DNA from: a bacterium
GTDB lineage: Bacteria > Calditrichota > Calditrichia > RBG-13-44-9 > J042
Reading direction: 5' to 3'
DNA length: 38,553 nucleotides
NCBI GenBank assembly: GCA_015485355.1
Contig: WFTQ01000086.1
Coordinates: 1 to 38,553, forward strand
The notes beneath the pieces are model-generated. The model was given only the letters and a program-made list of their open reading frames with translations. It had not been told where the DNA came from and did not search any database. Every line of letters starts with the position of its first letter. Position 1 is the stretch's first letter. The position numbers and the translations under genes were made by a program. Below, in pieces: positions 13,131-29,023 of this stretch.

Positions 13131-15614
13131 TTAAAACAGCTTTACCCGCCGCTGAATCAATAATAATAGACTGCGGATGATGATTTGCACGTCCAGACGC
13201 AGGGAGAGATTTTCGATATAATAGATATCGGACTTGATGCGTTCTTCCAGGTATTTTTGGCCGGACTCGTAGCGGTAGCGGACTTGTGCCAGACCGGTCA
13301 ATCCCGGTCGGACAAACAACCGTCGATGCAGGAACCGGAAACGCCGCTCGTTTCGCCGGTACCATTGGGGAGCTTCCGGCCGGGGCCCCACCACGCTCAT
13401 CTCCCCTTTTAAAATATTCCAAATTTGGGGGAATTTATAATACCGTGTTCGAAAGATGAATTTTCCCAGGGGCGACAATCGGGCGGCCCGACCTTCTCCA
13501 AAATAATATTTCTCGGGAATCTGGCGTCCCATGCGAAATACATACAGCCGAAACGGCTGCCCGAATTTTCCCAGAGCCGTCACCGCCGTAATGGGAAAAC
13601 GCTTGAACTGGAGAGAAATCAAAATCCAGGCCCCCACAACCAGGGGGATGTTTATAACCAGATTCACCAGGGCAAAAAGTATATCGAAGGCTCGTTTCAT
13701 GATCCATTGCCAGGGCACCATGCGTTCCGGGAATACCCGCGTCAGGGCATGATTATCCACCGCGGCCCGGGAGCCTGATAACAGATGATGCAACGCCGGG
13801 GTCGTCTTCATCACCACATGAAAGCGATCACAAATGCTGATGATGTTCATTAAATCCGTGCGGGAATTTTCCGGAACGGCGATAATGATCTCCTCGATCC
13901 CGTAGCGCTGAATCAGCACGGGTAAATCCCGATATTCCCCTAAAATAGGCACCCCTTCGAACTGATGCATCTTATCCCTTTTCTTGACCACAATACCTTT
14001 TACGTGGTAAAGCAGATGCGGATTGGTGCGAATATCTCGAAGCAGATTGCGGGCCTGACGGGTGGCACCAATGAGGAGCGTATTTTTCAGGGAGTACTCA
14101 AATATTTGTTTCCGTTTTTCCAGCTCAATGATGCCTAATCGGCCGCCGTTCACAAAAGCGACCATGCATAACCAGTAAAATCCCAGGGTGGTAAGTTGAG
14201 AGGCATTCAATGGGCTGGAGGGATCGGTCGTTAAAAACCCCACCAACACAATGCCGAAGGTAATGACCCGGCTAACGCGGATGGTCTTTTCGAAACGGCC
14301 GATATCCCAGGGCATACTGTAGAGTCCATTGAGCCAGAACAACAAGACCCACCCGATGGTAAAAAACAGAAAGACGGGGTCCATCAAATAATCCTGAAAG
14401 GCCCGGATGGTAAATTGGGCCACCCAACCGGACTGGAATTTAAACCAATAAGTAAAATACAGGGCGGCATTGACGGCGACAAGATCGGAAAGGAAAATGA
14501 AGACCTGATGCCAGAGGCGGTTGAGATGGAGAGGCGGAGCATGATTGGAGGCTGCGGAGAGGGAACCGGTATGGGGATACCTTCGATAGGCTTCCACATA
14601 TCCCAGACGTCGGGCCCAGTAGACGGCGGTAGCAAAAGTAATCAGAAAGAGAACATAACCGGTCACTTCCAGATAAATTACCATCAACACCCCCAGCACC
14701 ATGTAGAAAAAGGCCACCACGTATAAAAGCCACACGGTATGCAGGTGGGACAATCCCAGCTTCAGCAGGCGATGATGGACGTGCTCCTTGTCCGGTTTAA
14801 AAGGACTTTCCCCCCGTCCCAGACGCCGGAAAAAGGAAATCAGGGTATCGGTAACCGGCACACCCAGCAACACCAGCGATGCCAGAAAGTAAATTTGATG
14901 ACTTCGCGCCACCCGCAAAGACTCTATCGAAAAGAAGGCCAGAAGATATCCCAGTTGCAAGCTGCCCACGTCCCCCATAAAAATCTTTGCCGGATGATAA
15001 TTGAAACGTAAAAAGCCCAGCACCGCCCCGATGATGGAAACGGAAAGGATGACTAAGAACAGATCGCCCTGGAGATAAGAAATGATGGCAAAGCCGAGGA
15101 GCGCAATGAAAGCGATTCCCCCGGCCAGGCCATCGAGCCCATCCAACAAATTCAGGGCGTTGATGATGAAAATGATCCACAATACAGTAAAGGGATAGGC
15201 CAGCCATCCCAGGTTCAGGGTGGTGCCTCCGGGACTGACAAAAGCTTCGATCACACATCCCCCCTGCACAATCAGGGCCGCCGCCAGGAATTCCCCCAAA
15301 AACTTTTGCCAGGACGACAAACCCACCACATCGTCCAAAACGCCGGTAAAAACGATGACCATCCACCCCACAAAGAAAGAATAGTAGTTGACCCACTCCT
15401 GCCAGGGAAGCATATTCAATATTTTGGCCGACAATAAAGCTGCCAGAACGGCCAGAAAGATTCCGACTCCCCCCAAAACGGGCTTGAATTCTTGATGCAT
15501 GCTCCGGGCAGTGGGAAACGACCCGATACGGTACCGCGATGCCACCAGCCGACAACAATTGACCGCCGCCAAAGCGGTTACCAGAGATATGCCAAACAGA
15601 AGCACCAGGTTCAT
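13131..15614 (-). CDS. WecA-like transferase fused to degenerate WbaP-like domain
   Basis: 827 residues in one uninterrupted frame. Residues 1-335 are a polytopic polyprenyl-phosphate HexNAc-1-phosphate transferase (WecA/TagO/MraY family) with all key motifs: LDDVVGL (Asp94, Asp95), NALNLLDGLDGLAGG (Asp158, Asp161), FMGDVGSLQLG (Asp215) and EHVHHRLL (His278-281). Residues 365-490 add four more helices, 511-585 a Rossmann-like domain (TLLIGATRQARNLL), and 638-827 a monotopic WbaP-like domain (MKRAFDILFALV, WNILKGEMSVVGPRPE, RPGLTGLAQV). There the usual SLDELPQ reads RYYKFPQ, so the catalytic Asp-Glu is Tyr726-Lys727. The WecA-like half probably starts repeat-unit synthesis on undecaprenyl phosphate, and the other half is a likely pseudo-enzyme. 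Confidence 0.9.
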   Translation of the reverse strand: MNLVLLFGISLVTALAAVNCCRLVASRYRIGSFPTARSMHQEFKPVLGGVGIFLAVLAALLSAKILNMLPWQEWVNYYSFFVGWMVIVFTGVLDDVVGLSSWQKFLGEFLAAALIVQGGCVIEAFVSPGGTTLNLGWLAYPFTVLWIIFIINALNLLDGLDGLAGGIAFIALLGFAIISYLQGDLFLVILSVSIIGAVLGFLRFNYHPAKIFMGDVGSLQLGYLLAFFSIESLRVARSHQIYFLASLVLLGVPVTDTLISFFRRLGRGESPFKPDKEHVHHRLLKLGLSHLHTVWLLYVVAFFYMVLGVLMVIYLEVTGYVLFLITFATAVYWARRLGYVEAYRRYPHTGSLSAASNHAPPLHLNRLWHQVFIFLSDLVAVNAALYFTYWFKFQSGWVAQFTIRAFQDYLMDPVFLFFTIGWVLLFWLNGLYSMPWDIGRFEKTIRVSRVITFGIVLVGFLTTDPSSPLNASQLTTLGFYWLCMVAFVNGGRLGIIELEKRKQIFEYSLKNTLLIGATRQARNLLRDIRTNPHLLYHVKGIVVKKRDKMHQFEGVPILGEYRDLPVLIQRYGIEEIIIAVPENSRTDLMNIISICDRFHVVMKTTPALHHLLSGSRAAVDNHALTRVFPERMVPWQWIMKRAFDILFALVNLVINIPLVVGAWILISLQFKRFPITAVTALGKFGQPFRLYVFRMGRQIPEKYYFGEGRAARLSPLGKFIFRTRYYKFPQIWNILKGEMSVVGPRPEAPQWYRRNERRFRFLHRRLFVRPGLTGLAQVRYRYESGQKYLEERIKSDIYYIENLSLRLDVQIIIRSLLLLIQRRVKLF

Positions 15615-15805: not shown

Positions 15806-16285
15806 CTATTCGGTATCCAGCCGTTTTACCACCCGGGCCGGCACCCCGGCCACGACCGTGCGGGGCGGCACATCCTTTGTAACCACCGCCCCGGCGCCGA
15901 CAATGGCCCCTTCGCCGATGGTAACCCCGCATAAAATGGTGGCACTACTCCCGATGCTGGCGCCCTTGCGAACATAAGTGGGGATGCACACCCAATCCTC
16001 TTCGGCCTGCAGGCTGCCATCGGAATTGGTCGCCCGGGGATATTTATCGTTAATAAAGGTAACATTGTGGCCGATGAAACAATTATCCTCGATATGCACC
16101 CCCTCACAAATGAAAGTGTGGCTGGAGATTTTACAATTTCGGCCAACAGTAACGCCCTTCTGAATTTCTACAAATGTTCCGATTCGGGTATTATCACCAA
16201 TCTCGCAACCGTAAAGATTTACAAACGAGTAAATCTTCACATTCTTTCCCAACTTCACATCATCCGTAATGTTCACAAATCTCAT
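15806..16285 (-). CDS. Hexapeptide N-acetyltransferase, WlbB/WbpD-like
   Basis: 159 residues forming a left-handed beta-helix of hexapeptide repeats (VKLGKNVKIYSFVNLYG, CEIGDNTRIGTFVEIQ and so on to IVGAGAVVTKDVP). The insertion FINDKYPRATN near 77-87 is typical of the sugar 3-N-acetyltransferases WlbB/WbpD (UDP-GlcNAc3NA) and QdtC (dTDP-3-amino sugars). The oxidoreductase next door favours the UDP-diacetamido-uronate pathway. The start overlaps the oxidoreductase stop by four bases. The acetyl donor would be acetyl-CoA. The gene that would create its amino substrate, a DegT-type aminotransferase, is not in the window. Confidence 0.88.
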   Translation of the reverse strand: MRFVNITDDVKLGKNVKIYSFVNLYGCEIGDNTRIGTFVEIQKGVTVGRNCKISSHTFICEGVHIEDNCFIGHNVTFINDKYPRATNSDGSLQAEEDWVCIPTYVRKGASIGSSATILCGVTIGEGAIVGAGAVVTKDVPPRTVVAGVPARVVKRLDTE

Positions 16286-17319
16286 AATAAAACCTCCTTA
16301 CCACGATTTTTAATCGATTCTTCCGAAGCCTCTAAAATTCGTACGACCTGTAATCCCAACTCCCCCCCCGAAATGGGACTGGCCATACCGGTGATACAGT
16401 CCACAAAATGTTGCATTTCCACGGCCAGAGCCTCCGTCTGCGGAATTTTGGGGCTATACATATCCCCCGTTCGGTACTGGATCAGGGTATTATAAATCTG
16501 GTCGGTGGTTTGAATGACTTCGATGCCTTTGTCATACACCTTTACCTTTTCGCTGGGGGAATTGTCATCCCAAACAATCATTTTCTTGGTGCCGCTGATC
16601 AGCGTCCGGCGAATCTTCACCGGGGACAACCAGTTCACGTGGATATGAGCGATAAGCTTTGCCGGGTAATACACCGTCAGGTAGGCGACATCTTCCAGCC
16701 CGTTCCCCAGATGATCCGATCCAGTGGCCACTACAGCCTCCGGTGGAAGATCAATCACGTAGTTCATGATCGAAATATCATGGGGGGCAAGATCCCAGAG
16801 CACATTAATGTCATGCTGAAACAGCCCCAGATTCACCCGAACGGAGTCGAAGTAATACAAATCACCGATTTCCCCGACGCAGACCAGTTCTTTGATCTTT
16901 TGCACCGCACCGGTGAACAGGAAGGTATGATCGACCAGCAGGGTAAGGCCTTTCTGTTCGGCCAGATTAATCAACTCCTCCGCCTGGCGGGAAGTCGCGG
17001 CCATCGGTTTTTCAATTAGCACATGTTTTCCCGCCAGCAGAGCCTCCCGGGCCAGTTCAAAATGGGTAAACACCGGGGTACAAACGGCGATGGCCTCTAC
17101 CCGGGGATGGCGGATAACCTCTCGATAGTCTCGAGTGGTTTGAATGAAAGGATACAGCGATTGAATGTAGCGCAGCCGTTCGGGTTTCAAATCGGCGCAA
17201 ATGGGTACGCTGGTATTGGGATTCGCAACCAGGTTGCGTATGACATTGGGTCCCCAATATCCCACCCCGATCACACCAATCGAGATGTTGAGCTTTTCCT
17301 TTCCATGCTTCATAGCCAA
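16282..17319 (-). CDS. Gfo/Idh/MocA oxidoreductase, WlbA/WbpB-like
   Basis: 345 residues. The N-terminal Rossmann fold has GVIGVGYWGPNVIRNL. EKPMA (family lysine) follows at about 100, and a LAPHDISIMNY segment supplies the catalytic-type histidine. In the UDP-ManNAc3NAcA pathway WlbA/WbpB oxidises the C3 hydroxyl of UDP-GlcNAcA using NAD, before an aminotransferase and the WlbB acetyltransferase. The four-base overlap with the WlbB-like gene supports that pairing. Related family members act on other nucleotide sugars, so the substrate is inferred. The exact start is uncertain because two ATGs stand two codons apart. Confidence 0.88.
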   Translation of the reverse strand: MAMKHGKEKLNISIGVIGVGYWGPNVIRNLVANPNTSVPICADLKPERLRYIQSLYPFIQTTRDYREVIRHPRVEAIAVCTPVFTHFELAREALLAGKHVLIEKPMAATSRQAEELINLAEQKGLTLLVDHTFLFTGAVQKIKELVCVGEIGDLYYFDSVRVNLGLFQHDINVLWDLAPHDISIMNYVIDLPPEAVVATGSDHLGNGLEDVAYLTVYYPAKLIAHIHVNWLSPVKIRRTLISGTKKMIVWDDNSPSEKVKVYDKGIEVIQTTDQIYNTLIQYRTGDMYSPKIPQTEALAVEMQHFVDCITGMASPISGGELGLQVVRILEASEESIKNRGKEVLL

Positions 17320-17352
17320 TCCCTTAAGCGATCATCTTTTCATGAAAGGAAT

Positions 17353-18588
17353 TTATAGTTTTTCCTGAATAATCTTTAAATATTTCTCAGAAAGTTGATC
17401 TCTGTCAAAATACTTTTCAACGAATAGTCGGCCATTGCGCCCGAACTGTTTTCTGAGACCCTCATCACGGTATAATTTAAGTATCGCTTCTTGTAATTGT
17501 TGAACATTTTCGGGTTCCACGAAAATACCCGCACGGGCTTTGTCTACTACCAGTTCCCGCGCCTCTCCACACACACTGATAATTATGGGTTTGGCCATGG
17601 CCATAATCTCGAAGACCTTGGAAGGGATTACACTCTTGAAAAGAGGCAATTTCCGTAAGGGCACTAATACAACATCTGCCAGCTCATAATACGAGGGTAG
17701 TTCTTCCTTGGATATCTGATCGATGAAGATGACATTGGTTAATCCCATGTGTTGAACCTGATCCATCAAGCGCTCCTTTTCCGCCCCTTCACCCACGAAC
17801 AGAAATTGAATTTCGGGCATCCTTTTTAACCGCTTCGCACACCACAAGACATTATGTAATGCATGCGACAACCCATGGGTTCCGATATAAGCAATAACAA
17901 ACTTTCCTTTCAGGCCGAGCCGTTCCCGGAGACCACGCATTTCTTTTCCGGGCGTAAATAAAGACAAATCCACTCCGTTCTTGATCACAAAAATTTTACG
18001 GGCGGGAATCCCGCGAGAAGCGATAATATGCCTGGACGAATCGGACACGGTAATGATTGCCCGTGCCTTCCGATACAAGAACAATTCAATTTTCTCAAGC
18101 AATCGTATTATCACCCGGTTGTTTAATTGTCCCAGCTCGACGATGGATTGGGGCCACAGGTCCCGCACTTCGAACACGAATTGAGCCCCTTTGAGTCGAC
18201 TCAAAATGTATCCGGCGATTCCCACCAAAAATTGAGGACTGGTGGCAATCACCACATCAACCGGCCCCACTTTTCTTCCCCCGACCATTACCGCAGACAG
18301 CATGAAGGACAGATAATTCAATATGCGCTTACCAAACCCCTTGTTGGCGGCAGGAAAAATCATGGTCCGAACCACAGGAACACCCTCGATCACTTCTTTC
18401 ATCAACCATTTATGCCGATACGCCGGAGGGATAATTCCCGTGGGATGATTCGGGAAACCCGTCAATACCGTGACGGGCACACCCTTTTTAATCCAGTATC
18501 TGGAGGTCTCGAAAACCCGAGCGGAGGGCGCTCCCATCTCCGGAGGGAAATACTGGGATAAATACAGAATGTTGAATTTATAACCCAT
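17353..18588 (-). CDS. GT4 glycosyltransferase, WbuB-like
   Basis: 411 residues with the GT-B architecture of family 4. The N-terminal half opens with LYLSQYFPPEMGAPSARVFE, a signature of WbuB-type (fucosaminyl-type) transferases, and VFEVRDLWPQSIVELG (138-153) is typical of that subgroup. The C-terminal donor half has IAYIGTHGLSHAL, FVGEGAEKERL and SKVFEIMAMAKPII (323-336), the last containing the acidic nucleotide-sugar contact. It is predicted cytoplasmic, perhaps membrane-associated. It probably adds one amino-sugar to the lipid-linked repeat, but donor and linkage cannot be told from sequence. Confidence 0.9.
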   Translation of the reverse strand: MGYKFNILYLSQYFPPEMGAPSARVFETSRYWIKKGVPVTVLTGFPNHPTGIIPPAYRHKWLMKEVIEGVPVVRTMIFPAANKGFGKRILNYLSFMLSAVMVGGRKVGPVDVVIATSPQFLVGIAGYILSRLKGAQFVFEVRDLWPQSIVELGQLNNRVIIRLLEKIELFLYRKARAIITVSDSSRHIIASRGIPARKIFVIKNGVDLSLFTPGKEMRGLRERLGLKGKFVIAYIGTHGLSHALHNVLWCAKRLKRMPEIQFLFVGEGAEKERLMDQVQHMGLTNVIFIDQISKEELPSYYELADVVLVPLRKLPLFKSVIPSKVFEIMAMAKPIIISVCGEARELVVDKARAGIFVEPENVQQLQEAILKLYRDEGLRKQFGRNGRLFVEKYFDRDQLSEKYLKIIQEKL

Positions 18589-18641
18589 TTTCGAACCTTT
18601 GTGAAATCAGACGAATTTCCTATTCCCCAATGCCCATCCAA

Positions 18642-19799
18642 TTAACCGATTAATGCCTTGTAAGCTTCCAACAATTTTTTTTCTTCCGTATCCCAGGAAA
18701 AATATTTCCGGGCGTTTTCCATATTGAGCTTACTTATTCGCATCAGCCTATCGCGGTTTGAAACAAAATCGAATATAGCAGTAATTTCGTTTTTTATATT
18801 AAAAATGTCAACAGTCATGCCAAATTCAATGCGTCGATTTAGTTCCACCCAATCGGGGAAATTGCTGCACATAACCACTAAACCGTTCCCCATGTATTCG
18901 AATAACTTGGTGGGCAGGGTCTCCATGTAATTCCGGATTGGATGGAGAAACAAGATTCCGATATGGGCCTTTTGGACCAGGGCCATGGCCTTCGTGTGAT
19001 CAAGATAACCGTATAAAGTGATTTTTTCCTCCAATTGATTGAATCGGATGAAATCCTGAATACGCTTTTCGTAACCCTTATTGAAAATCGGTCCGATGAT
19101 GTGAAACCGACAATCGAATTTTGTATTCAAATATTTGATCAACAACAAGGCTTCGGTAATGCCTCGCTTTTCAGTAACCCCACCCACATAAACAAAATGT
19201 AAACACGATTCCATATCCCATGGCTTTTCTGCATAAGGCATTGCGGAGTGATTCAGAACATAATTCTGTATGATTGCGACGTTGGGATGTTGTCTATAAT
19301 ACCGTGTGTAGCCTGCTTCGGCCAGGATCAGCAAATCAATATGGGGTAACGATTTTTTTTCCAGGAACACATAAACCTTACTAAAAACATTTCGCAACAC
19401 TTTTGGAAGATAGTCTTTGTGAGAAATGGCGTCCGGATAATTTTCGTGAATATCATAAATCAATTTGCTTTTTCGGGTGAGGAAATATCGGAGAAAGGGC
19501 AGAAACACGGCCAGATCCGGATCATGAAAATGGTAAACATCCGCCTTGATTTTCAAGAAATAAAATCCAATTTTTACCAGACGAAGAATTCGGAAAACGA
19601 TACCCCCTCCCGCGTTCAGCCAGAGGAAACGAACATCTTCTTCCGGAACAGCGTTTTCTGTTTTTTTGACCACAAACCAAATTTCTGAATAACGCTTCTT
19701 TAAGGAATGGATCTCTTTATAAAATATGCGCACATCGTTGGGATGATGTTGTGACGTGATCACACAAATGCGTTTTTTTACTCTCATGTTCGATGTCAT
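18642..19799 (-). CDS. Glycosyltransferase, GT-B fold (GT4-like)
   Basis: 385 residues. N-terminal features are ICVITSQHHPNDVRIFYKE and VYHFHDPDLAVFLPFL with a following YDIHENYPD, as in several capsule transferases. The C-terminal half has FVYVGGVTEKRGI, FHIIGP and LPTKLFEYMGNGLVV (about 300-320), where the glutamate of LFEYM is the usual donor-site acid. An extended lysine-rich, A+T-rich composition distinguishes it from the housekeeping genes. It overlaps the upstream transferase by four bases (ATGA), so the two are coupled. The donor sugar is unknown. Confidence 0.88.
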   Translation of the reverse strand: MTSNMRVKKRICVITSQHHPNDVRIFYKEIHSLKKRYSEIWFVVKKTENAVPEEDVRFLWLNAGGGIVFRILRLVKIGFYFLKIKADVYHFHDPDLAVFLPFLRYFLTRKSKLIYDIHENYPDAISHKDYLPKVLRNVFSKVYVFLEKKSLPHIDLLILAEAGYTRYYRQHPNVAIIQNYVLNHSAMPYAEKPWDMESCLHFVYVGGVTEKRGITEALLLIKYLNTKFDCRFHIIGPIFNKGYEKRIQDFIRFNQLEEKITLYGYLDHTKAMALVQKAHIGILFLHPIRNYMETLPTKLFEYMGNGLVVMCSNFPDWVELNRRIEFGMTVDIFNIKNEITAIFDFVSNRDRLMRISKLNMENARKYFSWDTEEKKLLEAYKALIG

Positions 19800-21001
19800 A
19801 TCGCCGTTCTGGTGGTTAAGGCCTCTTTATAAAGTTTTACATATCGATTCACATTTTCTTCCCAGGTAAATTTCTCAAGAACCGTTTTTTTCGCATTGGC
19901 CTTTATGTGAGCCGTTGCGGTTTTACGCGAAAGAATTTTGTGGACGACATTCACAAAATCGCTGACATCATCTGGATCGACCAGATAACCATTCACGCCG
20001 TGCCGGATAATCTCTGCTATTCCTTCGTTCCTGGAACCAACGACTACTTTTCCAAAATACATCGCCTCTAAATAAACGATGCCGAAAGCCTCGTTCTTGC
20101 TCGGCAAAACAAACAAGTCGCAATCCCTAACATAGTTCAAAGCGATTTCTCTGGGTAATGCTCCTAAAAAGAATGTAAAGCCATCAACCCCTAATCTCTT
20201 GGCCAAATCATGAAAATAATCCCTATCTTCCCCGGAACCGATAATATAATAATACAAGTCCGGGAATCGCCGTTTCAAGATCGGCAAGGCTTGCAACACG
20301 GTTTTATAACCCTTCTGTTCAATGACTCGTCCAACCGAGAGCATTCGTATTGCCTTAGGATTGTTATCCCTCCACTGAACATTTGTGCGTAAAGAGGGAA
20401 TATGAACTCCATTGTAAATGACTTCAAGACGTTTAATACAAGGGGTCAAATTGTATTGATCCAATAATGATCGGAGTTTATGACTCACCACCCCCACAAA
20501 CGAAGCCTGTTTTAACACATGACGAATCCGATAATAATTCAACCGACTTCTGGGAATGCTTTTCAGCAAATCCGCCCCATGGACGGTCACCCCGAAGGGA
20601 ATTCCGTGAATCTTGCTTAAATACGAAGCCACCACCCCATCGGGTAAAACCACATGAGCATGAATTAAATCAATTTTAACACGCCCTAAGAACCGTTCAT
20701 AAAAAGAAAAGGCAGAAGCCCACATTAAATCGCCTCTTACGAAAAAAAACTTCAATTTGGGTATGGAAAAAAATCGCGGATAAAACACCTCCAGTTTGTG
20801 CAGGGGTAAAACCCGGGGAACTTGGTGATACCGGTACCAATCGCTTTTGCGGGAAATAAAAGGCGGAACGAAGGGAACGGGAGATACGACAAAGACTTTG
20901 TGCCCGGCTCTGGATAAATACGTACAAAAATCATAAACAAATATTCCATTTATGGGAAATACAGGGTTGGGAAACATGTGGGAATGGACCAAGATATTCA
21001 T
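19796..21001 (-). CDS. GT4 glycosyltransferase
   Basis: 401 residues with classical GT4 landmarks. The acceptor half has a glycine-containing loop (PVFPINGIFVYDF) and AHVVLPDGVVA with GVTVHGADL. The donor half has MLSVGRVIEQKGYKTVLQAL and the E-x7-E motif in SKNEAFGIVYLEAMYFGK (Glu304, Glu312), followed by GSRNEGIAEII. These residues bind the nucleotide-sugar donor in retaining GT4 enzymes. It lies 22 bases after the flippase gene and overlaps the next transferase. It should add one sugar to the lipid-linked repeat on the cytoplasmic face. Confidence 0.92.
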   Translation of the reverse strand: MNILVHSHMFPNPVFPINGIFVYDFCTYLSRAGHKVFVVSPVPFVPPFISRKSDWYRYHQVPRVLPLHKLEVFYPRFFSIPKLKFFFVRGDLMWASAFSFYERFLGRVKIDLIHAHVVLPDGVVASYLSKIHGIPFGVTVHGADLLKSIPRSRLNYYRIRHVLKQASFVGVVSHKLRSLLDQYNLTPCIKRLEVIYNGVHIPSLRTNVQWRDNNPKAIRMLSVGRVIEQKGYKTVLQALPILKRRFPDLYYYIIGSGEDRDYFHDLAKRLGVDGFTFFLGALPREIALNYVRDCDLFVLPSKNEAFGIVYLEAMYFGKVVVGSRNEGIAEIIRHGVNGYLVDPDDVSDFVNVVHKILSRKTATAHIKANAKKTVLEKFTWEENVNRYVKLYKEALTTRTAI

Positions 21002-21023
21002 TTCGCTTTTCCTTGACTAAAAG

Positions 21024-22460
21024 CTAATTCTTGTTCATTTTTGGTAAAAATTTTCTATAATACTGGACAATATCCGTCAATAAAAAGGTGTATAAGACAA
21101 ATCCCATGAGCTGGAAATATTTAAGATAGTGAGGATGCTGCAAAGGATAAACGAGTATCAACAATCCTAACGCCAGACGACCCATTAATCGAAAATTCCT
21201 TTTTGAAATGCTGATGGAGGATGATGACAGTATAATTATCAATAAACTTACGATGGCAACCCCCTGGGTAAAAGCATAACTGAAAATGGCCCCATTTAAT
21301 TGAAAACGGTTTACCAACAAGTAAGAGGAAACCACTAAAACAACACTTTTAATTCCCTCCAATGCGAGGAATTTTTTAAATTGATCGGAAGAAATCAAAA
21401 CAAATAGATAGAAAATGTAAACGGCATCGAAAAACTTTAAAAATAAAAACAAGTTTAAGGCGTGTTTCATCTTGACAAATTCGGTGTTATAAAACAGAAT
21501 TAAAAACAGATCCGGAAAAGCCATGATCAGCGCAACAATCGGATAGATGATATTCAGCAAAAATCTTAAATTATCATTGAGTACCTCCCGGAAATTGTTT
21601 TTGGCACTGCTTAAGGTGGGAAACAGATACACGGCAAAGGCCATAATCACAATATTCACGTATTGGGTGATAGACCAGACGGACTGAAAAAAACCATTAA
21701 CATTGAGGCCACCCAGTTGCACAATAATGGTACGAAAGACCACCAAAGATGAAAAGGCCAACACTTTTCGAGCTATATATATGGAACATAATTCCAGAAA
21801 TTTTAGGAATTGATCCTTTTTGATGTTCGCTTTTTTTTTAAACAACAAATGCCATTCGCTTTTTAGGTGCGTGAAGAAGATGATAAAGCTCACTATCCAG
21901 TAAAAATAGAGATTATAGATCACCCCCGTCATTCCAAACGCCCATACCAGCGGAACAATAGAGAGTACACCGAATATTGCGGCTAAATTTTGTCCCAATG
22001 CCAAAGCCTTAAATTGTTTTTTGGCACGGACGAGATTCTCCAATAAATAGGATAAAGAATAGACGGGTCCCAAACCGATTAAAAGAAGCAACAACCCCTG
22101 GAAACGTTCAGAACCAAACAGCAGGGTGGAAAAATAGGAGGCGAAGCACAAAAAAAAAGACACGAATAATAAATTGCTGACTATCAGGACATACAAGGAA
22201 AAACGTAAAATTGGAACCGTTTCGTGAGTCTCTTCTTTTATACTGATTTTTCCGCTTAATTGATGAACGATTAATGAAAATACACCGAAATCAATGATAT
22301 TTGATTGAAAGTTGTAGAAAGTAATTATTTGCCCTAAGATACCCACATGTTCAACTCCTAAGACAATGGAAACGAACTTGGCCCGAATAACACCGGTTAA
22401 ATTCCGCAATACGGCGGCGGTGTTAAAATAGACAATATACTTCACATGTTTTAAATTCAT
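21024..22460 (-). CDS. Wzx-type polysaccharide flippase
   Basis: 478 residues, almost entirely hydrophobic with about 12-14 predicted membrane helices, consistent with the MOP superfamily (Wzx, PST). The N-terminus KYIVYFNTAAVLRNLTGVIRAKF resembles the RxxTGVIRxK-like first helix of this class. Wzx moves undecaprenyl-diphosphate-linked repeats from the cytoplasmic to the periplasmic face. It lies 16 bases after the Wzy-like gene. The codon use is markedly A/T-ending with runs of A and T, unlike the flanking housekeeping genes, as is common for polymer-specific genes exchanged between strains. Confidence 0.88.
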   Translation of the reverse strand: MNLKHVKYIVYFNTAAVLRNLTGVIRAKFVSIVLGVEHVGILGQIITFYNFQSNIIDFGVFSLIVHQLSGKISIKEETHETVPILRFSLYVLIVSNLLFVSFFLCFASYFSTLLFGSERFQGLLLLLIGLGPVYSLSYLLENLVRAKKQFKALALGQNLAAIFGVLSIVPLVWAFGMTGVIYNLYFYWIVSFIIFFTHLKSEWHLLFKKKANIKKDQFLKFLELCSIYIARKVLAFSSLVVFRTIIVQLGGLNVNGFFQSVWSITQYVNIVIMAFAVYLFPTLSSAKNNFREVLNDNLRFLLNIIYPIVALIMAFPDLFLILFYNTEFVKMKHALNLFLFLKFFDAVYIFYLFVLISSDQFKKFLALEGIKSVVLVVSSYLLVNRFQLNGAIFSYAFTQGVAIVSLLIIILSSSSISISKRNFRLMGRLALGLLILVYPLQHPHYLKYFQLMGFVLYTFLLTDIVQYYRKFLPKMNKN

Positions 22461-22476
22461 ATGGGCAGTAATTCCA

Positions 22477-23883
22477 TTACTGGGGGTTCCACCTTAACCT
22501 TTGTAAGCAAAAAATTAAACTGATAATAATCCAGAAATTATTATCAAATAAACCGCCACCATAAAATTGATAAAATATCAAGTACGCCACAAAGGTAATC
22601 ACCAATGCACTCCCCATGGTGTATTCATCTTCCCGGACATGGGGGTGCTTCAATACCCCGATCCCTGTGGACAAAATCTTCCCGATGATCCATAAAAATA
22701 TCAGAAATCCTACAATTCCCAATTCCGCCAGAATGGTGTAAAATATATTGTGAGGTTCTACGACCCCCAGGGTATTCTGGGGTGGAATGATTTTGGGAAA
22801 CACGACGGGAAAGCCCCGAAAACCAACGCCCCATAAATAAGAATCAAAAAACATTTTAACGGCACCAATGCCCAGATAAATCCGTACCCGGGAAGACTCA
22901 TCAATTTCCCCGGTAAAAACCCCAAAAAACCGTTTTATCAGATTGAACAGAATGAATTGATAGTTGGGGAATAATAACAAGATCAACACTCCCAACAAAA
23001 ACAAAGCCACAATAACCTTCTTTTGCCGAAACCATATTGCCATCATGAGTAAAGACAAGGATATAGCAATCCAGCCACTTCGGGAATATGTAGAAATTAT
23101 CCCTAAAAACAATATGATAAACAAAATCGCTCCGATGATTCGTTTACTCCAATGGATCTTTCTGTTTAATGTAATCGATGCGGTTAAAAGAATGGGAAGA
23201 AAAAAATGCGTGGCGAATATGTTCGGGTCTTTCTGAACCCCGGTGGCCCTCGAAATAATTTTTTGACCCGAAGTTAGAAATCCCAACACAGCGGCTTCTT
23301 TGTTAAGCAGCCCCTCCTTTATTGAAACAATACTGAGTATAACGGATATAAACACCACAACTCCCAGAATGAATGTCAACTGTTGCTTTGTTCTGATCGT
23401 ATTGAGCAACAGATAAACCATTCCGATCAGAAAAAACAATCTTAAAGCATACAGAAGGCCTTCAGAACGGTTGGGGGAGTAAATAAGAGAGAATAAAATG
23501 AAAAGAAAAAAAAGAGACCATTCCATTTCGTGTCCTGTCAACCGTAAATGAAAATTTCGCGACAGAAAAAAATTCAATCCAAAAACAATAAAGGAAAGTA
23601 CTAAAAAGATTTGAAAAAGAGAAAAAGGGATAACGGCGTTTTGAAACAGGACGATGAAATACCCTAAGTACGAACCTATGGGAATCCAGACGACCATCAG
23701 GTAAGGATCTTTTAGAGAACCCAGAAGGTATAGCCCCAAAATCGCTGCAAAAAGTATGGCAATGATTCCCACAAAAAATGTTTCTTGCAGGATTGCGGGT
23801 ACAACAGCCAAGATCGCAAAGGATAATAAGTAAATGGTCTTATCGGTAAGTAACACCGGGATATATCGATACCGTTTTACCAT
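22477..23883 (-). CDS. O-antigen ligase/polymerase family protein (Wzy-like)
   Basis: 468 residues with about 12 hydrophobic segments and one long periplasmic loop toward the C-terminus that includes GVGFRGFPVVFPKI and VVEPHNIFYTILAELGIVGF. The PHNxFxxxLAELGixG block is the hallmark of the O-antigen ligase/polymerase domain (Wzy_C/PF04932 type). In a Wzx/Wzy system it joins lipid-linked repeats into a chain, with Wzz limiting length. Because no separate ligase or lipid A gene is near, polymerase is more likely than WaaL. It is A+T-rich like its neighbours. Confidence 0.88.
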   Translation of the reverse strand: MVKRYRYIPVLLTDKTIYLLSFAILAVVPAILQETFFVGIIAILFAAILGLYLLGSLKDPYLMVVWIPIGSYLGYFIVLFQNAVIPFSLFQIFLVLSFIVFGLNFFLSRNFHLRLTGHEMEWSLFFLFILFSLIYSPNRSEGLLYALRLFFLIGMVYLLLNTIRTKQQLTFILGVVVFISVILSIVSIKEGLLNKEAAVLGFLTSGQKIISRATGVQKDPNIFATHFFLPILLTASITLNRKIHWSKRIIGAILFIILFLGIISTYSRSGWIAISLSLLMMAIWFRQKKVIVALFLLGVLILLLFPNYQFILFNLIKRFFGVFTGEIDESSRVRIYLGIGAVKMFFDSYLWGVGFRGFPVVFPKIIPPQNTLGVVEPHNIFYTILAELGIVGFLIFLWIIGKILSTGIGVLKHPHVREDEYTMGSALVITFVAYLIFYQFYGGGLFDNNFWIIISLIFCLQRLRWNPQ

Positions 23884-23896
23884 TGCATTTTCAGCT

Positions 23897-25333
23897 TCAC
23901 TGATTTCGACCCAATTGCATAACGACTACATCCAACGGTTCAAGACGTTTGTTTACCGGGTGACCATTGACGTCACGGATGTAATAGGTGGTTGATTTAT
24001 CAGAATTTGCCAATATTAAGAACCGCTGCTCACTGTCCGTGGTTTTTATACAGAAATGCACTTTTTCCTGAAGGATACCGGAAGATTCTGTATTTCCCTC
24101 AAAAACGAACCGGTACCTTTTGATTTCCCTTAGAACATCCATTAACAATTGGAAATAGGTCCAGGAGGCCTCTTTTTTGGACCAAATCAATACTCCGGTA
24201 GCTCCATGAATCATCGAAAGGTAAATTTGACAACGGACGTTTTTAACGTAATCCGTTACCGATACATGTTTGGGTTTTGCCACCGCCGCACCATCAAAAA
24301 ACAACCACACGGGTTTATCTTGGCCACAGGCATCTTTGATGGCATTTACCACGATTGCAGCCGCTTCGGGATAACGAAAAAAGTCCGGGTAACTATTTAC
24401 GCTGAACACATCCGCGCTGCTATGGTAGAGCAACGCCGTCTGGAAGACGTTGTAATAATATTTTTCCCGAAACAACGGCCACGGTCGCGGTCGCCATGTG
24501 TTGCTGGTGGCGTCAAAATAGTAGAGAGAGGTTCCATCAGCGGCATAATTATAAGTATATAATTTTTCCGGATCGCCCTCCAATTGCTCCGGATGAATGC
24601 CGGAGGGTAAGTGTTCGGGCAATCGGGAGAAAGTCTTTGCGTGAATCAGTTCGTAATTGAACCGATCTCCTTTTAAGGAACCAAAAAGATCCAGTAAAAT
24701 CACCTTTCCCGGACTTCGGCGTCTCACTTCCTGAGCATACTTAAAAACGATCGCCGGGTGCCAGGCCCAATTTTGAAACCCTGTATTGGGTTCATCCATC
24801 AGAAACCAGATAAAATTAAAAGGGGCAAAACGTTGTAGTACGGGCTCAACGATCTGATTGCCGATGTAGTCCTTGTAATAGGTTTCGATATTGTCCTTCA
24901 CAAACCGCATCTCCCTGTAATCGATATGGCCGCTTCCATCCTTATCCGGGGTGTACAGGGAATCTCCCACGAAACGTTTCACCATTCTCCATTGGAAGAA
25001 ATCCCATCCGGTCATCAACACGGATTCGGCCATGTAGCTCTGTTCTCTTCCAAATTGGCAGTAGATCAGATTGAATAATTCCGCCATTTGTTTAAATCTT
25101 GCGATATTTGCCGAATCCGTGTCTACTTGAGACAATTTGGCCTCATACCCGGGTATGCCCCAAAGGCCCAGGGCCAAAAATTTCTCTCCATCCTTATAGA
25201 CCCATCCCTGTTTAACCGACCACTCGGGAGGTTCAGGATCATCCCCGGGCTTGAACCCATAAAGCAGCAATATACCGGTTAGTAAACCCATCCAAATGAG
25301 TCTCAAGGGTGCCTCGATTTTCGAAACGGCCAA
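23897..25333 (-). CDS. Secreted glycoside-hydrolase-like protein with EF-hand loop
   Basis: 478 residues. The start is a TTG at 25333 with GAGG five bases upstream; it overlaps the Wzz gene by 31 bases. An in-frame ATG at 25291 has no site. A signal or anchor helix (about 12-26) exports it. The body looks like a clan-A TIM barrel: FIWFLMDEPNTG (Glu181 where a general acid would sit), DVFSVNSYPDFF, KPVWLFFDG and HGATGVLIWS. An extra segment at 130-141, DKDGSGHIDYRE, is a complete 12-residue EF-hand calcium loop. The usual nucleophile Glu after KPVW is not evident (Asp347 is nearby), so activity is uncertain. A polymer-trimming role is inferred from the operon. Confidence 0.7.
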   Translation of the reverse strand: MAVSKIEAPLRLIWMGLLTGILLLYGFKPGDDPEPPEWSVKQGWVYKDGEKFLALGLWGIPGYEAKLSQVDTDSANIARFKQMAELFNLIYCQFGREQSYMAESVLMTGWDFFQWRMVKRFVGDSLYTPDKDGSGHIDYREMRFVKDNIETYYKDYIGNQIVEPVLQRFAPFNFIWFLMDEPNTGFQNWAWHPAIVFKYAQEVRRRSPGKVILLDLFGSLKGDRFNYELIHAKTFSRLPEHLPSGIHPEQLEGDPEKLYTYNYAADGTSLYYFDATSNTWRPRPWPLFREKYYYNVFQTALLYHSSADVFSVNSYPDFFRYPEAAAIVVNAIKDACGQDKPVWLFFDGAAVAKPKHVSVTDYVKNVRCQIYLSMIHGATGVLIWSKKEASWTYFQLLMDVLREIKRYRFVFEGNTESSGILQEKVHFCIKTTDSEQRFLILANSDKSTTYYIRDVNGHPVNKRLEPLDVVVMQLGRNQ

Positions 25334-26511
25334 TCTTTCCTCAACGACGCCGATATTCTGCTTAAATATTGATAATTCTGGCTATTCTTGCGCTTTTCAC
25401 TTTCGTAAAAATCTTTAACGAACACCACAAACAGGGCAAAGAAAATACCGAAGGTTAATCCGGCCAGCACAATATATATCCGTTTGGGTTTATACTTATA
25501 TGTCGGTACTTTTGCGGGATCCAGGATTTGGATTCCCTGGGACTGCATCTCTACCTGCAAACGCATTTGCTCGTATTGAGGATAAACAAATTCATATATC
25601 TTATTTTGAACCGTTACTTCACGAAACAACTTGGCATATTGGAGGGCTAATTCGGGCATTTTTTCCAACGGCTGGAAAAATTCATTCTCGGTTCCCTCCA
25701 CCTCCCGGAGCATTTCCGCATACTGCTTTTTAATGGCATTTCTTTGATTGATCAACTGTAAGTATTGAGGATTATCCCGGGAAACGGTATTCTTTAAAAT
25801 TTCCAATTGAATTTCCGTCTGGACCAACTGAGCCTTTAACTCCGCCACCTGTTTTATCAACTCTTCCATTTGGGTTTCTATTTGAAAAACACCAAAACGT
25901 TGTTGAAAATTTTTAAAGTTGAGTTCGGCATTCTGCAATTCTTTTACATTTTCCCGATATCGTTTCTCGATTATCTTGTATGTATAATAGGCCCGTTCTT
26001 TATTGAGCTGTTTAAGAATAGAATCCAATTGATGAATGTAATATTCGGTGACGGCTTCGGCCCGCTCGGGATTTTCGTCAATAAAAGAAAATTCCACTGC
26101 AATCAGGGGATTAAAACCGAAGCCTCCTTCCCGGATTTCGTGGATTTCAATATTGGATGCTAACTGTTTTAACAATATTTCCATCTTATCATTGCCATAA
26201 ATTTCGGCAAAATTAAATTTGCGAATGACCCGCTCCATCAACGAGCGGCTCCGAAGAATCACTAAAATGGCTTCCGGGTTGATCTCCTGGGTGGTGACTG
26301 TGGGTTGAAATAATCCCCCTAAGAATCCGGGAAACCCCGCGCCCTGACGAGGGGGCGGAAAAAATCTTACGGTGCTTTTATAACTTTTGGGCCAGACCAG
26401 ACTGATGATCAAACTCAACAAGGTAATCGATAAAACAATTTTAATGATCAACCATCTATTTTCGACTAACTTTAGTAATACCGCCAGCAAATTCACATCC
26501 TTCTGATTCAT
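25303..26511 (-). CDS. Wzz/chain-length determinant protein
   Basis: 402 residues. A short cytoplasmic N-terminus precedes a first helix (LIIKIVLSITLLSLIISLVW, about 16-35), a Wzz-type region (SYKSTVRFFPP), a long periplasmic part with strong coiled coil (about 160-265, many Glu, Gln, Lys), and a second helix (IYIVLAGLTFGIFFALFVVFV) near the C-terminus. This is the co-polymerase topology that sets chain length with Wzy. The C-terminal tail is only about 40 residues and lacks Walker motifs or tyrosine clusters, so there is no Wzc-type kinase in this protein. It lies between the export protein and the hydrolase-like gene. Confidence 0.93.
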   Translation of the reverse strand: MNQKDVNLLAVLLKLVENRWLIIKIVLSITLLSLIISLVWPKSYKSTVRFFPPPRQGAGFPGFLGGLFQPTVTTQEINPEAILVILRSRSLMERVIRKFNFAEIYGNDKMEILLKQLASNIEIHEIREGGFGFNPLIAVEFSFIDENPERAEAVTEYYIHQLDSILKQLNKERAYYTYKIIEKRYRENVKELQNAELNFKNFQQRFGVFQIETQMEELIKQVAELKAQLVQTEIQLEILKNTVSRDNPQYLQLINQRNAIKKQYAEMLREVEGTENEFFQPLEKMPELALQYAKLFREVTVQNKIYEFVYPQYEQMRLQVEMQSQGIQILDPAKVPTYKYKPKRIYIVLAGLTFGIFFALFVVFVKDFYESEKRKNSQNYQYLSRISASLRKDWPFRKSRHP

Positions 26512-26527
26512 CGGCCCTTCCTTACCA

Positions 26528-27745
26528 TTATCGAGATGTTTGAATTAAGGCAAAAACGCTGATCGCCATGCTCACAACAGGCATAAGGATCGCCATATAA
26601 TCTTTCACAATTTCCCGATTTCTTCGGGGGACAATGACGATATCTCCCTTTTCAACGATCACATGAGGGCCTTTTTCCACCCGGCCCGTCCGGGAGTGGA
26701 TGACGGTGAGGTGGTCCAGGCTTTTTGCTGTTTCCAGCACCCCGGCAAAACCGGCGTAATCCAAGGCCGTGTAATTGGCCAAATATGGATAGGGACCCGG
26801 TTGGGTCACTTCTCCTCTTACATAAACCATTTCCCGCGTGGAGGGGATAATGATTCGATCTTTGGTCTGCAATTTTTCGACCCGTGCAGGGGAGTTGCTT
26901 TCCAACAAATTGTAAAATTTTTTCTGATTCCCCCGGATCAGGACAATGCTTTCAATGTCCGACCGGCGGTTGATGGCCTGCAAACGCGTCAAGAAGGCAT
27001 ACAGGGTTTCTTGAGGACGAATCTGGTAGATTCCCTGGGAGCCCACATTTCCTTCAATGATGACATAACTTCCCTGCAGATCAATCGGGGGAACGTATAT
27101 GATATCGCCTCCCTGCAAGTAGGGATTTTCTTTCAGGTTGCCGGTTAAATAAAAATCGCTGATGTTGATGGTATCGACCCGGCCATCGTAATGGCGCAGC
27201 TGGATTCGGGTATCGTCCCCCCAATTGGTTAATCCACCCGCCAACTGGATGGCATCGCTCACCCGATCCGACGCCCTTAAGTAATAAGTGCCGGGTTCCG
27301 CTATCTCCCCCACCACAAACACTTTGAATTTGCGGAGTCGCAGCAATCGCACCGCAAATCGGGAGTTCTTGAAATGTTGGGCCAGCAGCGCCCGGATCTT
27401 CCGGCCGGCGCCGGCCAGCGTCTCGTTGGCTACATAAATCTGGGACATCCCGGGGATGACCAGAAACCCTTCCGGGGTAACTTCGCTGACAAATTGGGCC
27501 TCCATGACTCCCCAGACCTTCAAAAGCAATTGATCTCCAGGTCCCAGTATATAGGCGGTGGAATCGATCTGCCGCTCCAGGGCCTGCTCCAGGAATTGGC
27601 GTTGGGGAATGATCTGTTCGTTGGTTCTTTCCAGTTGCCGTAAATCGATGTCAAACACCTTGGCCCGCTCCTGGGTGGTTTGAACCTGCTGAGCCAGCAG
27701 TACGCCGGTAAACATCAGGATCCATATGCTGAATCGAGCCTTCAT
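26528..27745 (-). CDS. SLBB-domain polysaccharide export protein (Wza-like)
   Basis: 405 residues. A signal peptide (IWILMFTGVLLAQQ) is followed by the polysaccharide export domain (YILGPGDQLLLKVWG, about 65-79) and two or three SLBB repeats (FVVGEIAEPGTYYLR near 144; VYVRGEVTQPGPYPY near 308). A final hydrophobic helix (AILMPVVSMAISVFALI) closes the protein. There is no lipobox cysteine, unlike E. coli Wza. The C-terminal helix may be what crosses the outer membrane. The ATG directly follows the wecB stop (TAAATG) and has GAGGGGGG upstream. It should form the periplasm-spanning export channel with the Wzz protein. Confidence 0.92.
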   Translation of the reverse strand: MKARFSIWILMFTGVLLAQQVQTTQERAKVFDIDLRQLERTNEQIIPQRQFLEQALERQIDSTAYILGPGDQLLLKVWGVMEAQFVSEVTPEGFLVIPGMSQIYVANETLAGAGRKIRALLAQHFKNSRFAVRLLRLRKFKVFVVGEIAEPGTYYLRASDRVSDAIQLAGGLTNWGDDTRIQLRHYDGRVDTINISDFYLTGNLKENPYLQGGDIIYVPPIDLQGSYVIIEGNVGSQGIYQIRPQETLYAFLTRLQAINRRSDIESIVLIRGNQKKFYNLLESNSPARVEKLQTKDRIIIPSTREMVYVRGEVTQPGPYPYLANYTALDYAGFAGVLETAKSLDHLTVIHSRTGRVEKGPHVIVEKGDIVIVPRRNREIVKDYMAILMPVVSMAISVFALIQTSR

Positions 27746-28840
27746 TTATTCCCCCCTCAATATTTTCACGATCCGTTCGGCGGTATGACCATCCCAGAGC
27801 TCGGGCACCACCCCCTTCTTCCACCGACCTTCCAGAATTCTTCGGGCACATTGAACCATCTTCTCCGTATCGGTACCCACCAATTCATTGGTCCCCAATT
27901 CAATCGTCACCGGACGTTCCGTGTTTTCGCGAATGGTCAGACAAGGAATCTGCAAATAGGTCGTTTCCTCTTGAATGCCTCCCGAATCCGTCATGACAAA
28001 TTTGCTGTTCTGCATCAATTGCATGAAATCCAGATATCCGATGGGTGGAATCAACCGAAGATTGGGAATTCCGGCCACCCGCTCTTTGAGTCCAAAATGA
28101 TTCAGATTCTTTTCCGTCCGGGGATGTACGGGAAAAACGATCGGGATGTCTTTTTGAATTTCCTCGAAGGCATCCAGAATTTTTCCGAAGTTTTCCGGTT
28201 CGTCCACATTGGAAGGGCGGTGTAGCGTGACCAGCGCAAATTGTTGCGGTTGGAGGTGTAACGCTTCCAGGATGTTCGACTTCTTGGCCTGTTCTAAATA
28301 AAAGATTAACGAATCGATCATTACGTTGCCCACATAGTAAATTTTGGTGGCCGGTATGCCCTCTCGCATCAGATTTTCGTTACCGCTCTTTTCCGTGGTG
28401 AACAGATAATCCGACAAGGCATCGGTGATCAAGCGATTGATTTCTTCGGGCATTCGGCGATCGAAACTGCGCAATCCGGCCTCTACATGGGCCACGGGGA
28501 CCCATAATTTTGCCGCCACCAGGCTGCAGGCCACGGTGGAGTTGACATCGCCCACCACCACCACCAGATCCGGCCGGACATCCAAAACCACTTTTTCAAA
28601 TGCCAACATGATCTTGGCGGTCTGTTCGGCGTGACTCCCCGAACCCACACCCAGATAGATATCGGGTTCGGGCAATCGAAGGTCTTCAAAAAACAGCTTG
28701 CTCATGCGGTCGTCATAATGTTGGCCCGTGTGAACCAAGATGGGTTCTAATTCGGAATGGAATTTCACCATGGCCCGGTGGATAGGGGCGATCTTCATGA
28801 AGTTCGGCCGGGCGCCTACCACATTCAAAATTCTTTTCAT
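27746..28840 (-). CDS. wecB: UDP-N-acetylglucosamine 2-epimerase, WecB/WbpI family
   Basis: 364 residues from ATG 28840, which has GAGGATTCC upstream. The frame is open to 28936, but that extension covers the promoter and lacks family sequence. Landmarks are LNVVGARPNFMKIAPIHRAM, HTGQHYDDRMS, VVGDVNSTVA, HVEAGLRSFDRRMPEEINR and the C-terminal TDSGGIQEETTYL with RENTERPVT. The enzyme interconverts UDP-GlcNAc and UDP-ManNAc. With the WlbA/WlbB-like genes in the same operon it may instead be the WbpI/WlbD branch that epimerises the diacetamido-uronate. Sequence alone does not separate these. It is the first gene of the operon. Confidence 0.93.
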   Translation of the reverse strand: MKRILNVVGARPNFMKIAPIHRAMVKFHSELEPILVHTGQHYDDRMSKLFFEDLRLPEPDIYLGVGSGSHAEQTAKIMLAFEKVVLDVRPDLVVVVGDVNSTVACSLVAAKLWVPVAHVEAGLRSFDRRMPEEINRLITDALSDYLFTTEKSGNENLMREGIPATKIYYVGNVMIDSLIFYLEQAKKSNILEALHLQPQQFALVTLHRPSNVDEPENFGKILDAFEEIQKDIPIVFPVHPRTEKNLNHFGLKERVAGIPNLRLIPPIGYLDFMQLMQNSKFVMTDSGGIQEETTYLQIPCLTIRENTERPVTIELGTNELVGTDTEKMVQCARRILEGRWKKGVVPELWDGHTAERIVKILRGE

Positions 28841-28868
28841 GGAATCCTCGATAAAATTACAAGTGCAA

Positions 28869-28897
28869 AATTTACACCGGGGCCTCATATATCGCAA
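28869..28897 (-). promoter_or_regulatory. Promoter of the exopolysaccharide operon
   Basis: On the minus strand TTGCGA (28897-28892), a 17-base spacer and TAAATT (28874-28869) lie 28 bases before the wecB ATG. The resulting leader would be about 20 bases and contain the GAGGA ribosome site. All downstream genes to 10998 are on the same strand with small gaps, so this may drive the whole operon. Confidence 0.6.
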
Positions 28898-29023
28898 GGT
28901 ATAAATCATCTTGCGCGGTTGGGAGTCTGTGTTCAACTTGATCGTGCAAACAGACGTTTGCCCAATGGAAGACGGGCTTTGGGAGGACCAACGAAGGCCT
29001 CTGTCCCGGGGTGAAAAGGGAGG

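Follow-up and report, generated by a model that had tools for sequence, protein, structure and literature searches.

Polytopic and monotopic phosphoglycosyltransferases (PGTs) catalyse the same reaction without being related, and each takes its undecaprenyl phosphate (Und-P) from a scarce common pool. In the window, as we call the whole 38,553-nucleotide stretch of Calditrichota DNA analysed here, the two kinds are joined in one protein. On the polytopic side stands WecA/TagO (PF00953; structural relatives MraY and DPAGT1), which the N-terminal half of the fusion resembles in its full motif set and MraY-like fold; polytopic PGTs have been tabulated as "PGT only" (PMC10942596), and the fusion differs from them by a complete WbaP-type module. 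On the monotopic side, WbaP, WcaJ and EpsZ are large monotopic PGTs (monoPGTs) composed of four helices, a DUF/CoA_binding_3 domain and Bac_transf, and they share with the C-terminal half of the fusion this domain order, a PglC-like fold and the PRP and RPG-TG-AQ motifs. Unlike them, the fusion has Tyr-Lys for Asp-Glu, has lost the equivalents of R88 and K59 and carries a WecA domain in front.

MonoPGTs fused to other enzymes are a recognised category, the Bi-PGTs, which PMC10942596 attributes to O'Toole 2021. As this second-hand summary presents them, Bi-PGTs likewise combine a monoPGT with another functional domain, and fusions from Neomarinimicrobiota and Ignavibacteria/Bacteroidota (see below) would, judged by their motifs, count as dual enzymes; on the same summary, our fusion differs in that the domain joined to the monoPGT is itself a PGT, from the other superfamily, and that the monoPGT part in Calditrichota is apparently dead. 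WbbL, a GT2 enzyme of E. coli and mycobacteria, has the product of WecA, lipid-PP-GlcNAc, as its substrate (PMC10375533), and a comparable role directly after the WecA step is plausible by gene position for the GT2 protein encoded beside the fusion. The latter differs from WbbL by a WbaP-type module with a seemingly dead PGT tail. WbbL itself, to our knowledge, carries no such module. Pseudoenzymes, for example the trypanosomatid DHS paralog and prozyme (PMC3663545, PMC5201418), likewise include a dead relative constrained beside an active enzyme; in the fusion, by contrast, the dead and active domains come from different superfamilies and sit in one chain, and another lineage shows the reciprocal loss.

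An earlier note on this DNA had described a single frame with an intact WecA domain followed by a WbaP-like module, that is, two unrelated PGT superfamilies in one chain, without naming the strand. This description holds. The open reading frame lies on the minus strand with its ATG at 15614, and the plus-strand frame is riddled with stops. Pfam places Glycos_transf_4 (PF00953) at aa 79-231 (E 8e-42), CoA_binding_3 (PF13727) at aa 509-595 (E 1e-6) and an essentially full-length Bac_transf (PF02397) at aa 640-818 (E 3e-40), and the NCBIfam model EPS_sugtrans (TIGR03025) spans aa 376-821. All four WecA motifs that the note had listed are present, namely DD (94-95), NLLDGLDG (155-162), GDVGS (214-218) and HVHH (278-281), and the Calditrichota copies that were inspected retain them intact as well. 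The structure prediction that it had proposed agrees as well: with the AlphaFold2 (AF2) model of the fusion (pLDDT 79.7, pTM 0.75), the best Foldseek matches in the PDB were MraY (TM-target ~0.69-0.79), PglC (0.72-0.75) and WbaP. By Pfam, NCBIfam and AF2, the second half thus has the WbaP family order of helix bundle, CoA_binding_3 and Bac_transf. The region of the DUF beta-hairpin falls at about residues 613-637, where residues 614-622 are below pLDDT 50. An Rfam search of the window gave zero matches. The features of the locus are collected in Table 1.

Table 1. Features of the fusion locus, in window coordinates
Feature	Position	Strand	Basis
Fusion gene: WecA-type polytopic PGT and large-monoPGT (WbaP-type) module with lost dyad, predicted dead	13131..15614	minus	827 aa; ORF, Pfam/NCBIfam, homologues, AF2/Foldseek
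WecA/TagO-type polytopic PGT half, aa 1-340, with its full set of catalytic motifs	14595..15614	minus	PF00953, motif conservation, MraY fold
WbaP-type membrane helix region, ~aa 376-505	14100..14489	minus	TIGR03025 start at aa 376, AF2 helices
Rossmann-like CoA_binding_3/DUF domain, aa 506-612	13779..14099	minus	PF13727, alternating strands and helices in AF2, Rossmann match to 3nkl
Monotopic PGT fold, predicted dead by sequence, aa 638-827	13134..13703	minus	PF02397, PglC TM-target 0.72-0.75, dyad lost
Tyr726-Lys727 codons in place of the Asp-Glu dyad	13434..13439	minus	aligned to PglC D93-E94
Adjacent gene: GT2 glycosyltransferase and WbaP-type module, 707 aa	10998..13121	minus	Pfam, junction, conservation beside the fusion
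Co-directional Wzx/Wzy-type polysaccharide cluster upstream of the fusion	15806..28936	minus	Pfam/NCBIfam

The intact motifs and the fold suggest that the WecA half is catalytically active as a sugar-1-phosphate transferase onto Und-P. The source genome encodes a single further PF00953 protein, whose MurD-like neighbour makes it a probable MraY. The sole other Bac_transf protein of this genome (L001, at C16:24186-24740) is a short WbaP relative of ~340 aa with a Rossmann domain and a dyad-intact PGT but lacking the N-terminal helix bundle; many Calditrichota genomes encode proteins of about this length.

The monotopic domain departs from its active relatives at the very site of catalysis. When aligned by phmmer with PglC of Campylobacter concisus (8e37), the fusion has RYYKFPQ opposite SLDELPQ, with Tyr726-Lys727 on Asp93-Glu94, and a PglC-anchored MAFFT alignment (8e37/8g1n) gives the same placement, exactly as the earlier note had read the site. 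The fusion therefore lacks the Asp-Glu dyad that the WbaP family has in its (S)LDELPQ block. Tyr and Lys are each found in 28 of the 29 aligned Calditrichota copies, the one exception being Asn-Arg. In PglC numbering, K7, R8, D11, R112 (of PRP) and R145 are retained in at least 27 of the 29 copies, and so is the RPG-TG-AQ motif (P134-G135, T137-G138, Q141). The losses comprise D93 (now Tyr), E94 (now Lys), R88 (now an aromatic residue) and K59, and the Pro that breaks the re-entrant helix (P24) is retained in just 24/29. In PglC, R88 and R145 matter for Und-P binding (PMC10519829), and the loss of R88 would argue against Und-P being bound exactly as PglC binds it. A relocated dyad, which the same note had named as a possible objection, can be rejected: among the strongly conserved acidic columns of the C-terminal domain we found no migrated Asp-Glu pair, these columns being also acidic in active relatives or forming no pair at the site. 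The loss of monotopic chemistry in the Calditrichota fusion is, as far as alignments can tell, well supported, and the C-terminal half probably has no monoPGT activity.

The domain is nevertheless far from drifting. Within Calditrichota, the mean pairwise identity is 46% for the dead PGT domain against 48% for the WecA domain, and Tyr and Lys belong to the 31 of 185 dead-domain columns conserved in at least 28 of the 29 copies. A comparison of the window with the nearest relative gave pN values of 0.063 for the dead PGT domain and 0.082 for WecA, with dS near saturation and the ratios accordingly rough. Since Tyr-Lys is fixed and most of the pocket is conserved, we regard the change as a constrained replacement and not as decay. 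The domain has the sequence hallmarks of a pseudoenzyme, catalytic residues being lost with fold and sequence under purifying selection. A scaffold or sensor role, as suggested in the earlier note, fits this pattern of conservation, although it is something we infer.

The fusion was found in 35 of 40 Calditrichota genomes, including 22 of the 23 high-quality ones. Genome contigs were scanned with two peptide patterns, so the named list of relatives is a lower bound; full-length relatives came from Calditrichota, Candidatus Neomarinimicrobiota and metagenome-assembled genomes (MAGs) labelled Ignavibacteriae, Chlorobi and Bacteroidetes. Elsewhere the full-length fusion is rarer: around the MAG with L168 it occurs in 3/248 sampled genomes of the phylum and 6/149 in the class, and in the phylum of G093 (Neomarinimicrobiota by likeness) in ~16/120 sampled genomes. 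An assembly or annotation artefact joining two genes, a concern voiced before, has practically no probability left: the frame is open in most of the 35 Calditrichota genomes, a copy from an independent genome of the same genus is 87% identical, and other phyla carry the fusion too. With 35 of 40 independent assemblies of the phylum sharing it, an assembly join is excluded. Our literature search for PF00953-PF13727-PF02397 (polytopic-monotopic PGT) fusions or dead monoPGTs, whose scope did not extend to the O'Toole 2021 PNAS network study, found none. The previous statement that no described enzyme has this layout thus agrees with the literature searched, but the layout itself is near-universal in Calditrichota and is also found in other phyla.

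Across these taxa, the fusion exists in three states. Both motif sets are intact, where the copy is complete, in Neomarinimicrobiota (L082-L093) and in Ignavibacteria/Bacteroidota (L141-L144, L168, L194, L195, L197 and L198; L147 is truncated). In Calditrichota, the WecA motifs are intact and the dyad has become Tyr-Lys. In a further set of Neomarinimicrobiota copies (L095-L098 from G118, G139, G131 and G170), the WecA half is devoid of DD, NLLDGLDG, GDxGS and HxHH, and the monotopic dyad is intact as IDE[IV]PQ. Two intact active sites in one chain are therefore seen, at the level of motifs, in relatives of the first state and not in the window protein.

Trees were built for each half by a quick IQ-TREE search with SH-aLRT support and are unrooted. 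In the WbaP-module tree, all 32 fusions form one clade with support 98, and the Tyr-Lys copies make a single clade (100). The WecA tree likewise groups the fusions, the stand-alone WecAs all lying on the other side of a split with support 98, save L173, a contig-end fragment placed among the fusions and probably a cut second copy; here, the Tyr-Lys copies make up two well-supported groups, the order between which is unresolved. The copies with the dead WecA half form one clade. These groupings are compatible with one event, from which the fusions of different phyla apparently descend. Because dyad-intact fusions exist in other phyla, the dead monotopic half would be the derived state, and the simplest history appears to be one fusion, a later monotopic loss in Calditrichota and a separate WecA loss in one Neomarinimicrobiota lineage. 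As the trees are unrooted and quick, the call of gain versus loss rests on the motif-bearing stand-alone relatives. The reciprocal case of a dead WecA with a live PGT argues that each half can be retained without its own chemistry, and the three states together hint that the dead half has been kept as a scaffold or sensor.

Smaller combinations were also encountered. The WbaP-type helix/Rossmann unit is fused, without a PGT domain, to WecA (L130 and L133, G087) or to GT2 (L131 from G040, L132 from G046), and L129 (G073) joins it to GT2 together with a PGT that looks intact; taken together, these cases give the impression of a mobile regulatory module.

The best functional clue, overlooked in the earlier note, comes from the gene next door, which starts about 10 nt past the fusion stop with a clear ribosome site ahead of its start. 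The protein consists of a GT2 domain (aa 8-193), WbaP-type helices and Rossmann domain (CoA_binding_3, 352-520) and a truncated Bac_transf tail (619-693). Its GT2 motifs are intact, and its PGT tail is dyad-less, the DELPQ segment being absent. The window thus encodes two successive enzymes, each with a WbaP-type module that looks dead. A Foldseek search with the model of the GT2 protein had glycosyltransferases in its best 50 matches and was silent on the WbaP part. The idea that the GT2-borne module is a recent copy of that of the fusion is unsupported, since it occupies a separate long branch in the tree. A GT2 gene with a dead WbaP module adjoins the fusion across Calditrichota and lies close to it in three Ignavibacteria/Chlorobi/Bacteroidota loci. 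The pairing does not extend to all fusions: near those of Neomarinimicrobiota, no GT2 partner was found within ~6 kb.

The fusion gene is the closing end of a Wzx/Wzy-type cluster, which comprises a hexapeptide acyltransferase, a Gfo/Idh/MocA oxidoreductase, three Glycos_transf_1-type glycosyltransferases, Wzx-like, Wzy_C, Wzz/GNVR and Wza/SLBB proteins and a UDP-GlcNAc 2-epimerase. RmlC is encoded in the source genome. Two cluster proteins of 478 aa (23897-25333 and 21024-22460, minus strand) have no Pfam match; all that NCBIfam offers for the second is a weak hit to WzxE, a lipid III flippase model. In many Calditrichota loci, a ~575-aa protein, by appearance a Wzi-like outer-membrane barrel, is encoded directly upstream of the fusion (L065:6336-8177, L071:11477-13204, L072:6705-8417, L068:11804-13468); it is absent from this place in the window.

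We give a little better than an even chance to the reading that the fusion is a single-activity WecA priming enzyme whose dead module serves as a platform, probably paired with the GT2 protein, coupling steps 1 and 2. With a UDP-sugar as donor, the WecA half would load Und-P with a sugar-1-phosphate, probably HexNAc-1-P. The WbaP-type module, which would formerly have performed the same kind of reaction via the covalent Asp mechanism, would have lost this chemistry and been retained for regulation and assembly: it may dimerise, its Rossmann domain may read uridine nucleotides, and the old pocket may bind a phosphate ligand, with the fixed Lys possibly substituting for the metal-bound Glu. WbaP forms a homodimer via the DUF beta-hairpin, dimer formation and the binding of UMP/UDP-sugars both reside in its helix/Rossmann region, and the enzyme is inhibited by UMP (PMC10942596). 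WecA chemistry releases UMP too, and so a WbaP-type DUF could conceivably regulate the WecA half. For Myxococcus EpsZ, dimerisation has been proposed as the regulated step, and this protein, which has no beta-hairpin, is modelled to dimerise otherwise (PMC12802240); the dimer interface is hence unreadable from sequence alone.

The most likely partner of the dead module would be the product of the next gene, which likewise has WbaP-type helices, a Rossmann domain and a PGT tail that looks dead. If the modules paired, the GT2 active site would come to lie beside fresh Und-PP-sugar, allowing the product to be handed over and step 1 of the Wzx/Wzy pathway to be coupled to step 2. Gene adjacency by itself is no proof of a complex, and we favour one because the GT2 neighbour carries a WbaP unit and WbbL-type GT2 enzymes act after WecA. 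It is tempting to go further and suppose, with due reserve as we lean somewhat against it, that one ancestral FCB-group fusion gave rise to all three states, that the dead modules of the Calditrichota fusion and of GT2 assemble into a hetero-oligomer for initiation, channelling Und-PP-sugar from step 1 to step 2, and that the Tyr-Lys pocket is a metal-free ligand sensor.

Another account would limit the dead module to homodimerisation or UMP feedback on behalf of the WecA half; GT2 would be no particular partner of it and would carry the module because this is a mobile regulatory unit of many Und-P enzymes. The helix/Rossmann unit does occur on WecA or GT2 without a PGT domain, on GT2 with an intact-looking PGT and on PglF-like dehydratases (PMC10942596), and the Neomarinimicrobiota fusion has no nearby GT2 partner. 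However, the two-gene pairing is conserved in Calditrichota and recurs in Ignavibacteria/Chlorobi/Bacteroidota loci, and a UMP sensor would need the Rossmann domain alone, yet the whole dead PGT fold is strongly constrained. We consider this account unlikely, while giving it more weight than the two that follow.

Tyr-Lys might instead be a new active centre working on undecaprenyl- or nucleotide-linked phosphate, e.g. with Tyr as a nucleophile or Lys in place of the metal. Such a centre would explain why both residues are fixed in 28/29 copies in a mostly conserved pocket that keeps the R112 and R145 equivalents, but the metal-binding Glu is lost or replaced, as are the counterparts of R88 and K59, the PGT tail of the GT2 partner has dispensed with the whole segment, so that a catalytic site is expendable there, and a Tyr nucleophile is not known to us from any monotopic PGT; we rate it as very improbable. 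Equally hard to credit is a C-terminal module that is a decaying remnant, a membrane anchor at most. Lost catalytic residues and the P24 retained in just 24/29 copies might be taken as its signs, but vestigial decay is disfavoured by the equal constraint on both halves, and among the Calditrichota matches listed, incomplete copies are contig ends or isolated in-frame stops in MAGs. The coupling platform remains our preferred reading. A fusion whose halves have died in opposite ways in separate lineages would offer a natural experiment on the non-catalytic role of the WbaP-type accessory module, a live question for the large-monoPGT field, and together with GT2 it would be a test case for physical coupling of the first and second Wzx/Wzy pathway enzymes.

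Finally, we would like to mention two observations on gene neighbourhood and taxonomy. A seryl-tRNA synthetase gene adjoins the Neomarinimicrobiota fusion and lies near the fusion in at least one Calditrichota locus, L071 (L071:5158-6447; L081:7386-8675; also L137, L139, L140 and L145), which suggests an old shared gene neighbourhood. Two fusions from sequences labelled Caldisericaceae (L146, JAGHBR010000427.1) and Deltaproteobacteria (L166, WYBG01000317.1) bear the Calditrichota Tyr-Lys signature and resemble the fusions of the Calditrichota genomes G029 and G015, so their public taxon labels look wrong.
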